Assembly (NCBI RefSeq): GCF_000170855.1
Contig: NZ_ABCQ01000017.1
Coordinates: 1 to 64,000 of the forward strand
Origin: Moritella sp. PE36
GTDB taxonomy: Bacteria; Pseudomonadota; Gammaproteobacteria; Enterobacterales; Moritellaceae
Direction: 5' to 3'
DNA length: 64,000 nt
Shown here in pieces: positions 31,630 through 36,037 of this stretch; the stretch's first letter is position 1; every line of letters starts with the position of its first letter. The notes beneath the pieces were generated by a model. The model worked only from the letters and a program-made list of their open reading frames with translations. It did not search any database and had not been told where the DNA came from. Made by a program: the position numbers and the translations under genes.

Positions 31630-31919
31630 CAAAAACTCCTTTAAAACGGCTGACACCAGTTCAATGCTTTATGATTTTAAAGCAATATAATTACAGTGGG
31701 TCCCCTAATAACTCAGTGCATACTGAAATGATGAGTCCCAGCCCCTTTATACCATTTAATACCACTTAATACATGCATCCTTGTACATACTGATATAGCT
31801 AATAAACGACCTCTTTATTAACCGACATGACATTAGTCAATTACTTGGGCAATACACTTGGTTATAGTGACTGGGTATTTTTCTTAACACTAAATTGATC
31901 GAACAAAGAGGATATTATT

Positions 31920-32000
31920 ATGAGTTGTTGTGGTGGCTGCGGCGGACAAGATCTAGAAGAAACTAAAAAAGTTGAAGAAACAGAACAAGATTCAGAGTAG
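31920..32000 (+). CDS. 26-residue Cys/Gly-rich microprotein
   Basis: ATG 31920 opens MSCCGGCGGQ, then the charged tail DLEETKKVEE and TEQDSE, stop at 32000. AGAGGA seven bases upstream is a good ribosome-binding site, and a hairpin with T-run follows within about 25 bases, so this looks like a complete small gene. The three cysteines in CCGGC could bind a metal or carry a redox or thiol group; the acidic tail is probably disordered. I know of similar CCGG-rich small proteins annotated in related marine bacteria but not of a function. The neighbour at 32745 has an RGGCGSCYN motif, which may or may not be related. Confidence 0.7.
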   Translation: MSCCGGCGGQDLEETKKVEETEQDSE

Positions 32001-32023
32001 TTAATAATACTGACTCTTTAAAT

Positions 32024-32054
32024 TAAGGCCTTACTTATATAAGTAGGGTCTTTT
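32024..32054. terminator. Terminator after the microprotein gene
   Basis: CCTTACTTATATAAGTAGGG forms a near-perfect stem flanked by AAGG and a T-run. It may also serve the CAP gene that ends at 32056 on the other strand. Confidence 0.65.
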
Positions 32055-32055
32055 G

Positions 32056-32646
32056 CTATAACGGGGTCGCTAATACTTGTGTCCAATAAATGCCATAATA
32101 TGAGCCTTTATTGGTATAAGACGCCATGCCCATCTGCGAATACTCCGCATCCATAATATTCAAGCAATGCCCTTTACTGCCTAACCAACCCTGGATGACA
32201 ACGCTAGCCTCGAGCTGACCGGCAGCAATATTCTCACCCGCAGCACGCCAATTATACCCAGCGGCATAAGTCCGCTCCCCGACTCGATTGCCTTGTTTAT
32301 CTCGATGATTAAAATAATCACCAGCTGCCATATTTTGCGAATGAGCATAAGCTGATTGCTGCAATTGCTCATTCCATACCACAGGGGCAACTGCTGGCAT
32401 CTTGCGATTACCGCAAGTATAACCGCCGACACGAGCAGCATTCACCGCGGCTAGCATCTGACGTTTAAATCCAGGCGTTGGCTCAGGACCGAGCCTTCTC
32501 GTCGGTTTTGAGGAAGGTGGAATAACTTGCTCAACCGCTTTATCTGGTGATACAGCCTCACTATCGGTATTATCATATCGACCATCGCTTACACATGCGG
32601 TTAGCAATACAGCCATCACACAAGTCGAGATCCATTTCGACATCAT
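32056..32646 (-). CDS. CAP-superfamily (SCP/PR1-like) lipoprotein
   Basis: From the Met at 32646 the protein begins MMSKWISTCVMAVLLTAC, a clean lipoprotein signal with lipobox LTAC, so it is probably anchored in the membrane envelope. A short low-complexity linker leads to the CAP domain: FKRQMLAAVNAAR, WNEQLQQSAYAHSQNMAAGD (His), YNWRAAGENIAAGQ (Glu) and GHCLNIMDAEYSQMG (His). Function of bacterial CAP proteins is poorly known. The frame is open upstream to a GTG at 32745 that overlaps the preceding gene's stop (TAGTG). Starting there would put 33 residues before the signal peptide, so the inner start is preferred, though coupling is possible. Confidence 0.75.
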   Translation of the reverse strand: MMSKWISTCVMAVLLTACVSDGRYDNTDSEAVSPDKAVEQVIPPSSKPTRRLGPEPTPGFKRQMLAAVNAARVGGYTCGNRKMPAVAPVVWNEQLQQSAYAHSQNMAAGDYFNHRDKQGNRVGERTYAAGYNWRAAGENIAAGQLEASVVIQGWLGSKGHCLNIMDAEYSQMGMASYTNKGSYYGIYWTQVLATPL

Positions 32647-32744
32647 TTTAGATTTATCTCTTAATGTCGTCTGTAATCTAGCTTTAACTCGCTCAGGTTT
32701 GATCATTCGCCCTCTCGTTTCTATCGAACTTACGGTGTCGTTCA

Positions 32745-33521
32745 CTACTTTAACGCTAATAACTGTTGTAAGCGCGCAGGTTCTCGCTCAATTTGCTTTA
32801 ATGCCTGTTTAAAATCACGTCTTAAATAACCTTTCAAATTACGGGTTGCGTCGCCTGTTGAAATCCCTTTTAGTCGGCAAAATAAGGCTAATGCAAAGAC
32901 AACATTGTCTTCTGACAAACTGGCTTGTCGATTGGCTTGCGCATTATAACAACTGCCACAACCGCCCCTAAAAGTATAAGCTGAGTTTGCCATCATTACC
33001 CCAAAACCCATAAAAACAGCTACTATCTCGGTGCTTGCATTAAAATAATCAGCACCACCTGGTGGTAATTGTTGTAATTGGGCCACGATATGTTGGGCTA
33101 AATGATGCGCATAACTCGAGGCTAGATCACCCGGTTTTGATGCCTGCTGTGGATTGTAAGTCATGGCTAAAGGCTGAGGTGCGATTAATGCAGGCAAAGT
33201 GTTGGACACAGATGAATTTCGTTGAATGGCAGATAAATCGAGCAATGCAGGCGGCTGACTACTGAAATTCTGCGGTGCTTGCAACTGTAGCGGCCAATGG
33301 CTTAATCCTGCATATTTAACTACGTGATTAAAAATGGTTTCTGCCATGCCGTGACGGCTGTCGATATTACCGGGAAAGAAATCATTCGTTGGTTGGATCA
33401 ACTGACTGCGCTGAAAAAATTCTTGTTGGTCGAAATGTGTTAACGCCCACTCAAAAGTGTCAAACATCCACTCACAACTGGCGTCGTCAATGAGCGGTTT
33501 AGAACGAAAAATATTCAGCAT
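32745..33521 (-). CDS. Uncharacterised protein with RGGCGSCYN motif
   Basis: I do not recognise a named family. The 258-residue protein has no signal peptide. A proline-rich middle (QPPALL, IAPQPLAM) follows an N-terminal acidic/aromatic segment. The best candidate functional part is ASTEIVAVFMGFGVMMANSA (about residues 163-182) followed by RGGCGSCYNAQANRQASLSE and a helical stretch with FALALFCRLKG. The E..A.F.GFG..N pattern and the two Cys hint at metal binding, but this is not proven. It overlaps the long form of the CAP gene by one base (TAGTG), so the two are probably one transcript. Confidence 0.65.
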   Translation of the reverse strand: MLNIFRSKPLIDDASCEWMFDTFEWALTHFDQQEFFQRSQLIQPTNDFFPGNIDSRHGMAETIFNHVVKYAGLSHWPLQLQAPQNFSSQPPALLDLSAIQRNSSVSNTLPALIAPQPLAMTYNPQQASKPGDLASSYAHHLAQHIVAQLQQLPPGGADYFNASTEIVAVFMGFGVMMANSAYTFRGGCGSCYNAQANRQASLSEDNVVFALALFCRLKGISTGDATRNLKGYLRRDFKQALKQIEREPARLQQLLALK

Positions 33522-34558: not shown

Positions 34559-35293
34559 TTAATCTTTATTCAGCATAACAGGTTTAGTCAACATCAAAGG
34601 TTTTATCAACGACAAGAAAAATGCAGCGGATATCACCGATGAACCGAACATCATGCACATGATCATTATCTGATAACGCACAGCAATAAACGGCGACACC
34701 CCAGAGAGGATCTGCCCCGTCATCATGCCAGGCAAAGACACTAACCCGACAGCAAACAATGCATTGATGATCGGAATTAACGATGCTCTTAGCGCAATAC
34801 GACGTGCGATAAGATAATCTTCACCTCGCCGCATTTCGGCATGTAAACGCTCTGCGGATAAGCTGACACTGTTCATTGCATTCGCAAATGCCATTCCCGC
34901 GAGTGGCACCATATATTGGGGGTTATACCAAGGGTCTAAACCAAGTACACCCGCGCTCATAATAAACAAGGTAAAACCACCGCCTGAGATCACCGCGGCT
35001 AACGCATATTTATACATTTTCCAGCGCTGGTCAGGCACCGCACCTAAGGCAATCCAACTGGAAGCAATCACCATAATTAACAGTACACCAACGACAATGC
35101 CTGCACTATGTGACTCAAAGATATAAGATAAAAAATAACCGATTAATAACAGCTGGATCAACATACGAGATAAGGCATACAAACCATTTTTAATCGGTAA
35201 TCGCCATTGCAGTAAGATCGCCAACGCCACTAACACTGGAATAAATGCAAACGCTAAATGGCTAAACGAGATCACCTGTACAGTATTACTCAC
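34559..35293 (-). CDS. fetB: FetB-like ABC permease (UPF0014)
   Basis: The 244-residue membrane protein has about seven hydrophobic spans. Family blocks are LSRMLIQLLLIGYFLSYIF, LAGMAFANAMNSVSLSAERL and SLPGMMTGQILSGVSPFIAVRYQI. In E. coli FetA-FetB takes part in iron export and oxidative-stress resistance. No FetA ATPase gene adjoins it here, so the partner must be elsewhere or missing. The start is GTG at 35293, three bases after the stop of the Crp/Fnr gene, indicating translational coupling. Confidence 0.85.
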   Translation of the reverse strand: MSNTVQVISFSHLAFAFIPVLVALAILLQWRLPIKNGLYALSRMLIQLLLIGYFLSYIFESHSAGIVVGVLLIMVIASSWIALGAVPDQRWKMYKYALAAVISGGGFTLFIMSAGVLGLDPWYNPQYMVPLAGMAFANAMNSVSLSAERLHAEMRRGEDYLIARRIALRASLIPIINALFAVGLVSLPGMMTGQILSGVSPFIAVRYQIMIMCMMFGSSVISAAFFLSLIKPLMLTKPVMLNKD

Positions 35294-35296
35294 AAC

Positions 35297-36037
35297 TTAC
35301 TCACCCGGTACGAATTGCGTAGGAATATTACCCGTCACTGATTGTACCGGTATATCCGACGCCGCATATAACGCGTCAATATCCATAATGCGAATAAGCC
35401 CTTTTCGCTCTTCTATTAAACCTTCTTTGGTCATTTTTTTAAGCAAACGAGAGAACGTTTCGGGTTGAATGGACAATAACGATGCGAGCGTACGTTTTGG
35501 TATATCCAGCTCAATAATACCTTCATTACCGTTGTTATCTTGTAGGTTTTTTAATAGGAATAATAGCAAGCGGTTTTTAGCATTTTCAACCGACAGCATC
35601 TCAATTTCATTCAAATCATGGTGTAAACGAATACTCATATTCGCCATAATTGCGATGCCAGCTTCAGGATTAATTTTGAGTATCTTTAAGTATGTTTCAT
35701 TATCAATCGAAATCAGTTCACTTTCCGATACAGCCTGTGCTGCAACCGGGTAAAACGGCTTATTGTTAAACATTAATGCTTCCGCAAAGGTATTACCTTG
35801 GCGCATTACTTCAACCACTTTCTCTTGGCCACTTGGGCTAGTACGGTAGAGTTTAAGGTGTCCGCGTAGCACGAGGTAAAATCGATTGGCTTCATCACCT
35901 TGGTGAAATACGTTCTCTAGTGGCTCAACTTTAAATGTTTTTGCTGTAGCAAATAATTGCTTAAATTCAGCGTCAGTGAGTGCCGAAAACAAGTGATGAG
36001 TTGATACTATATCAATGATATGACTGTCGGTGATCAT
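35297..36037 (-). CDS. Crp/Fnr family transcriptional regulator
   Basis: The 246-residue protein has a cyclic-nucleotide-type beta-barrel: LENVFHQGDEANRFYLVLRG, then KVVEVMRQGNTFAEALMF (about residues 38-95). A dimer helix (LNEIEMLSVENAKNRLLLFLL) leads to a winged HTH with LDIPKRTLASLLSIQPETFS and RLLKKMTKEGLIEERKG (about 170-210). There are no N-terminal Cys residues for an Fe-S cluster, and the barrel lacks the clear cAMP-binding RSA motif, so it resembles the DNR/NNR branch that senses nitric oxide by haem; that is inference. It is immediately upstream of fetB. Confidence 0.82.
   Translation of the reverse strand: MITDSHIIDIVSTHHLFSALTDAEFKQLFATAKTFKVEPLENVFHQGDEANRFYLVLRGHLKLYRTSPSGQEKVVEVMRQGNTFAEALMFNNKPFYPVAAQAVSESELISIDNETYLKILKINPEAGIAIMANMSIRLHHDLNEIEMLSVENAKNRLLLFLLKNLQDNNGNEGIIELDIPKRTLASLLSIQPETFSRLLKKMTKEGLIEERKGLIRIMDIDALYAASDIPVQSVTGNIPTQFVPGE

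Follow-up and report, generated by a model that had tools for sequence, protein, structure and literature searches.

The analysis of a 26-codon ORF of Moritella sp. PE36 reveals a microprotein, MSCCGGCGGQDLEETKKVEETEQDSE, which is, on the evidence of its sequence, a member of an undescribed bacterial family composed of an M[S/G]CCGxCGG core and a tail rich in Glu, Gln, Lys and Asp. The best explanation of our results, to which we assign a probability of about 0.5, is that of a stand-alone microprotein of the nitric oxide (NO) and Fe–S stress response, which would bind iron or nitrosylated iron alongside the membrane protein NnrS. Its parts differ in firmness: that the microprotein belongs to the NO/Fe–S stress response is highly probable, and the odds that its chemistry consists in the handling of iron or iron-nitrosyl species are about even.

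The gene is located near the middle of the 64,000-nucleotide stretch of contig NZ_ABCQ01000017.1 that was analysed as a whole (hereafter the window), and the features discussed here are collected in Table 1. It had been proposed in a first-pass annotation as a genuine microprotein gene with a good ribosome-binding site, and both proposals hold at the level of the genus. The ORF is present in 11/11 Moritella genomes, which are also the entire family-level sample, at 92–100% amino acid identity. Its pN/pS ratio in these genomes is 0.11 (pS 0.305, pN 0.032), with residue changes confined to codons 12 and 18 and silent variation at 10 other codons. About 95 bp 5′ of the ORF are also conserved in Moritella, and the DNA farther upstream is not. 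The conservation across the genus, the low pN/pS ratio, and the preserved ribosome-binding site and upstream DNA together argue that the initial observation holds and that the peptide is selected; the pattern of substitutions indicates purifying selection on the encoded protein. Such conservation goes well past what chance would give, and a lack of conservation in relatives, the refuting outcome named in the first-pass annotation, was not observed.

Table 1. Positions of the microprotein gene, its putative control elements and the neighbouring genes within the window.
Feature	Position	Strand	Evidence or remark
CCGxCGG microprotein, 26 aa	31920..32000	+	ORF read, genus conservation, pN/pS, family matches
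Shine–Dalgarno AAGAGGA	31906..31912	+	7 nt before ATG; AGAGGATAT kept in 11/11 Moritella genomes
FNR/DNR-like box ATGACATTAGTCAA	31827..31840	+	7/10 to TTGATnnnnATCAA; centre at about −41.5 from inferred transcription start
IscR type-1-like box TTACTTGGGCAATACACTTGGTTAT	31841..31865	+	3.3 bits vs control maximum of 2.0 (325 upstreams)
Putative −10 element TATAGT	31863..31868	+	29 bp after centre of FNR-like box
Hairpin, probable weak terminator	32025..32052	+	−14.2 kcal/mol, z −2.7; pairing conservation
CAP/SCP-domain gene	32056..32745	-	
258-aa protein with RGGCGSCYN	32745..33521	-	
FetB-like permease beside DNR-like regulator	34559..36037	-	
CRP/FNR-family regulator, candidate activator	35297..36037	-	PDB match DNR; syntenic in genus

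The hairpin 3′ of the ORF had been described as the gene's own terminator. Its stability and its pairing, which is kept in 94% of cells versus 30–72% when the structure is slid, agree with that proposal; however, the T-run is short, a strict terminator scan found no terminator and covariation was not above that of shuffles. Owing to this last result in particular, the hairpin is retained as a likely but modest terminator. Its presence, together with upstream DNA that is conserved in Moritella like the ORF itself, could also mean that the conserved unit is an RNA or a promoter and that the short ORF is incidental or encodes a leader peptide. We consider this extremely improbable, since silent sites change with residues remaining fixed, the same peptide core is found in distant genera with different flanks, and Rfam contains no match at the locus. 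In addition, the microprotein gene trails nnrS in the operons seen and heads none; the leader-peptide reading was rejected.

The extent of the family was estimated with a degenerate DNA pattern for the core, which was scanned over one genome per species and returned at least 116 stretches. Among the matches listed, 90 of 116 are credible members, all of them labelled gammaproteobacterial or general proteobacterial. They comprise 63 of the first 80 loci (L051–L130), on which most counts are based, and 27 of the other 36 (L131–L166). The loci discarded by eye had no charged tail and, for most of them, no ribosome-binding site; they are 17 of the first group (L061, L063, L072, L073, L075, L090, L094, L097, L106, L112, L113, L116, L119, L125, L126, L127 and L130) and nine of the second (L132, L133, L134, L136, L142, L143, L153, L157 and L165). 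A simple test for a ribosome-binding site is passed by 62 of the 63 members and by 25 of the 27 later ones among the matches listed, the failures being all from Vibrio (L129, and L144 and L159, respectively). Members among these matches are found in Moritella, Psychromonas, Colwellia, Thalassotalea, Thalassomonas, Litorilituus, Shewanella, Pseudoalteromonas, Vibrio, Alginatibacterium, Endozoicomonas, Motiliproteus, Oleiphilaceae, Oceanospirillaceae, Hahellaceae and uncultured lineages.

The 63 aligned members among the matches listed are 23 to 51 residues long and share invariant M1, C3, C4, G5, C7, G8 and G9, an invariance largely fixed by the DNA pattern itself; matches to a pattern-free profile carry the same core. 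The CCGxC motif first noticed in the Moritella peptide is thus the invariant core of a family. In the same listed members, position 6 is occupied by G, S, A, V or Q, and E, Q, K and D make up 67% of the tail, which never contains a cysteine and has F, W or Y in 0/63. A profile of the genus sequences also found short ORFs with this core in other families of the order. Its matches at E values up to 10 concern 100/394 order genomes and are mostly due to chance, and 20 genomes outside Moritella match at E ≤ 0.003. The DNA pattern itself occurs in 32/394 order genomes versus 0/394 for the reversed control, and in 3/331 genomes of the class sample, own genome included. Two variant cores, MSGCCGACGG (L030, genome G352) and SCCGACGG with a putative start (L046, genome G153), were missed by the pattern, and both genomes have NnrS; as such variants escape detection, the family is wider than counted.

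Neither the peptide nor the alignment of 63 members found a credible homologue in Pfam, NCBIfam or PDB sequences, and the peptide of the Moritella window found none in PHROGs. Matches to YdiJ (E 0.008, 3/63 members) and to TIGR04165 (E 0.03, 1/63 members) were judged to result from chance or analogy, and the single match of a plasmid search, inside rlmD, from chance. In the portions of the open-licence PMC literature that were covered, exact peptide strings gave nothing beyond a single occurrence of one string. The same collection returned nothing joining nnrS, NsrR and a small protein, nothing on a cysteine-rich small protein of Moritella or on a "CCGSCS motif", and, among the matches listed for the microprotein literature, no link to NsrR.

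The main lead to a function comes from the genomic company of the microprotein gene. Among the matches listed, nnrS is located directly upstream in 28 of 90 loci. Within the first 63, it is the next gene upstream on the same strand, 62–370 bp away, in 18 loci, and all 18 genes encode NnrS above the Pfam cut-off, eight of them being far from the training set of the search profile. Among the later members listed, nnrS was detected with our own profile within 122 bp in 10/27 and at 861 bp in L162. All these adjacency counts are lower bounds because of short contigs. The microprotein gene comes after NsrR-like and NnrS-like genes on the same strand in 11 of the 19 loci that were fetched, and an NsrR-like gene is also present in 11 of the 90 listed loci, partly from the same genomes as the fetched ones. 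A representative of these NsrR-like proteins has the NCBIfam NsrR model as its best match, at 124 bits and below the cut-off of 182. Nowhere in Moritella is nnrS adjacent to the microprotein gene; it lies elsewhere in the genome.

At the genome level, the tie is close to complete in one direction. A genome-wide search, which covered the first 63 members among the matches listed, detected NnrS in the genomes of 62 (18 adjacent, 2 Moritella, 19 of a 21/21-positive set and 23/24), the single genome without a match being a 1.7 Mb MAG. In the order sample, NnrS is found in 32/32 pattern-positive genomes versus 202/394 overall (P 1.4e-10 by genome, 2.5e-4 by genus), counts which are not independent since the order-sample genomes overlap the listed loci, and for which related species were counted one by one, as throughout. 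In the class sample, NnrS is found in 3/3 pattern-positive genomes (own genome included) versus 158/331 overall, and both positives outside the order have it. In genome G573, an NnrS match stops about 93 bp short of the microprotein gene, and in G470 one stops about 0.7 kb short of it. Among the five sampled genomes of one genus (g15), only G084 has the pattern and only G084 is in the NnrS list. Conversely, 170 of the 202 NnrS genomes are without the microprotein by pattern (at least two of them, G352 and G153, have a variant of the core), from which it follows that NnrS does not need the microprotein. Judged from these counts, the microprotein occurs almost only in nnrS-carrying genomes, and the association is strong.

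The promoters bring independent support for a link with NO and Fe–S stress. For their inspection, an IscR matrix was built solely from the IscR sites (12 distinct ones) in the iscR promoters of Moritella, and 325 gene upstreams, with a highest matrix score of 2.0 bits, served as controls; the IscR type-1 consensus was checked against passages of PMC6599224, and those of NsrR and DNR against passages of PMC1274295. An IscR type-1-like box scoring above all 325 controls precedes the microprotein gene in 34 of 90 promoters among the matches listed (24/63 and 10/27), and 22 of those 24 score 11–34 bits. In 32 of these 34 listed promoters (23/24 and 9/10), the IscR-like box is preceded, at a distance of exactly 14 bp, by an FNR/DNR-like box scoring 7/10 or more, versus 1.0% of places for a fixed-place box in controls; in one of the exceptions, L120, a 10/10 FNR-like box is shifted by one base. 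FNR-like boxes of 9–10/10 are found in 25/63 listed members versus 11/325 controls. Where the IscR-like box ends, the 24 listed promoters display a hexamer with 3–5/6 matches to TATAAT; relative to it, the FNR-like box would be centred at about −41.5, the position of a class II activator.

NsrR boxes of 12–13/14 are less common. They precede 4/63 and 3/27 members among the matches listed, versus 3/325 controls, and belong to Vibrio, one Psychromonas, Oceanospirillaceae and Endozoicomonas members; in the fetched set, they occur at 4/12 microprotein genes. A box of 13–14/14 is found at nsrR in 11/11 nsrR-nnrS-microprotein operons. In contrast to these indications, nnrS of the class-A genomes has an IscR-like box above 11 bits in only 4 of 30 loci scanned, which counts against a simple co-regulation of both genes. 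Several other arrangements were observed in the course of this survey. Four Psychromonas loci (L034, L038, L040 and L049) share the element ACACCTTAAGTTGT, ACACCTTAAG(T)TGT, upstream of the microprotein gene, with no NsrR box there. In L226 (family f5, Shewanella) and L203 (family f6), IscR-like boxes flank a central FNR box, as seen by eye. Finally, three Shewanella nnrS promoters (L262, L263 and L266) carry an NsrR-like box (11–12/14) directly before an IscR type-1-like box (14.7–18.7 bits), a tandem of two Fe–S sensor sites.

Judged from its boxes, the Moritella promoter keeps the FNR-like and IscR-like anatomy of the family, in a conserved but weaker form. The FNR-like box, TGAC-N4-GTCAA, is present in 11/11 genomes in the same register as the 9–10/10 boxes of other genera. 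The IscR-like box stands directly 3′ of it, over the putative −35 to −10 region, and is much weaker than the Colwellia or Shewanella boxes: its best score exceeds all 325 controls in 9/11 genomes (at another register in L007) and is −6.2 in two. The −10 element reads TATAGT in 10 and TATACT in one of the 11 genomes, all in register. No sigma-70 consensus promoter was found at the gene, which fits, without proving it, an activator-dependent promoter. Two loci scanned for an NsrR operator revealed no clear one (best 9–10/14). As for Moritella nnrS, an IscR-like box is found in 10/11 genomes (9/11 by matrix).

A candidate activator is encoded nearby. The CRP/FNR-family regulator of the window has the NO sensor DNR as its best PDB match (3dkw, E 1.7e-45; best non-DNR match 2.9e-23), and is found in the window and in the 10 other Moritella genomes adjoining a FetB-like permease; the regulator lies on the downstream side of the microprotein gene, at a distance of about 2.9 to 4.2 kb. 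This pairing of a FetB-like iron-export permease with a DNR-like regulator, conserved in Moritella, is possibly an NO-controlled iron export pair. Closer to the microprotein gene, on the opposite strand, a CAP/SCP-domain gene overlaps the gene of a 258-aa protein. The latter, present in the window and 10 other Moritella genomes at 84–93% identity, has no match in Pfam, NCBIfam, PHROGs or PDB. The best aligned stretch of the CAP/SCP protein varies from 57 to 231 residues across Moritella genomes and no CAP match is found in L294, which suggests that this gene may be decaying or fast evolving. The first-pass annotation had pointed to this opposite pair because of the RGGCGSCYN motif of its first product. 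A functional link was rejected, since among the loci examined the pair adjoins the microprotein gene only in Moritella, and the cysteine motif as such offers no evidence of a link.

From these elements, the following mechanism can be sketched. An activator of the FNR/DNR type bound near −41.5 would turn the gene on at low oxygen or in the presence of NO, and cluster-bearing IscR sitting on the −35/−10 region would repress it up to the point where the Fe–S cluster is lost to NO or to a lack of iron. After removal of the methionine, the N-terminal (S/G)-C-C-G-x-C-G-G would offer three thiols, and perhaps the amine of the N-terminus, carried by a short and flexible charged tail. The peptide may then bind ferrous or nitrosylated iron (or a nitrosothiol), keep it from damaging other proteins and cooperate with NnrS in the membrane. 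According to passages of PMC9246220 and PMC11526790, NnrS shields the iron pool from dinitrosyl iron complexes (DNICs) and does not act by removing NO. In line with this, the three-thiol peptide, as a member of a new cytosolic family, could be a DNIC or ferrous-iron carrier for NnrS, catching nitrosylated iron from damaged Fe–S proteins so that the iron is returned with NnrS; we put this forward only tentatively, as a doubtful proposal. That three cysteines are few for an iron sink also counts against the iron-binding reading. The early guess of iron binding or a role in thiol stress is partly supported to the extent that it agrees with the NnrS, NsrR, IscR and FNR context.

The thiols of a CC-x2-C motif are also suited to Cu(I). 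The peptide might then act as a chaperone or buffer of copper(I), either supplying a heme-copper NnrS or guarding cells from copper freed by stress, an idea in keeping with the genome-level tie to NnrS and with the description of NnrS as a heme-copper-containing membrane protein in the part of PMC1274295 considered. However, the promoter boxes found are of the types of Fe–S, NO and oxygen regulators and most NnrS genomes are without the microprotein, which makes a copper function unlikely. We deem it equally unlikely that the peptide is a small regulator or folding partner docking through its charged tail on NnrS or on an Fe–S protein, with its cysteines as a redox or NO switch. Its small size, the adjacency of nnrS in 28 of the 90 listed loci and the pairing of a variable, charged tail with a cysteine core that never changes would suit such a role, but no hydrophobic or aromatic surface is conserved along the tail (no F, W or Y in the 63 listed members), which is unusual for a docking peptide. 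Less probable still is a general thiol buffer, for nitrosothiols or disulfides and with no specific metal: although three invariant thiols in a Gly-rich N-terminus are compatible with it, so short a peptide would need a high abundance against the low-molecular-weight thiols of the cell, and the constancy of the CCGxCGG spacing points to a defined ligand site. Binding of iron or nitrosylated iron alongside NnrS is our preferred reading.

Several known systems resemble the microprotein in part. A metal-type motif is found at the extreme N-terminus of HypB, and the microprotein shares such a terminal cysteine/glycine motif; HypB_prefix (NCBIfam) gave no match over the cut-off (best E 0.51, 3/63 listed members). 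Likewise, the CCG cysteine-rich domain (PF02754) has a Cys-Cys-Gly core in common with the microprotein, which is without the full domain and gave no match over the cut-off (2/63 listed members, best E 0.16); both sets of matches were judged to be due to chance or analogy. Metallothioneins are similar by their short cysteine/glycine metal-type motif but have many clustered cysteines, whereas the microprotein has three in its core and none in the tail (63/63 listed members). Tiny cysteine proteins that annotation easily misses include, as described in part of PMC10716476, the C(P)XCG zinc microproteins, such as archaeal HVO_0758; these contain two motifs, unlike the single CCGxC(GG) core with three cysteines found here. 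The IscR-regulated Fe–S assembly genes have a type-1 box over −35/−10, to which the type-1-like box of the family promoters, weak in Moritella, may correspond in kind and placement, but the microprotein is, by its sequence, no assembly factor and its promoter adds an FNR/DNR-like box. With NnrS (PF05940) and the NsrR regulon, the likeness resides in common genomes, operons and some NsrR-type boxes, NnrS being a membrane protein of about 400 residues and the microprotein a peptide of 26. The NsrR regulon, as set out in the sections considered of Rodionov et al. 2005 (PMC1274295), includes Hmp, NnrS, DnrN/YtfE and Hcp, and no small three-cysteine member was found in these sections.

To conclude, our results illustrate that a shared promoter architecture combined with co-occurrence can suggest a function even where an ORF is too short to be annotated by ordinary means. 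How NnrS protects iron is not settled in the portions of PMC9246220 and PMC11526790 considered, and the microprotein offers a genetic and biochemical handle on this question; if it does act as a carrier, NnrS would gain a soluble partner. Given its near-restriction to nnrS-carrying genomes, the microprotein is probably an overlooked part of the way in which marine bacteria protect their iron from nitric oxide.
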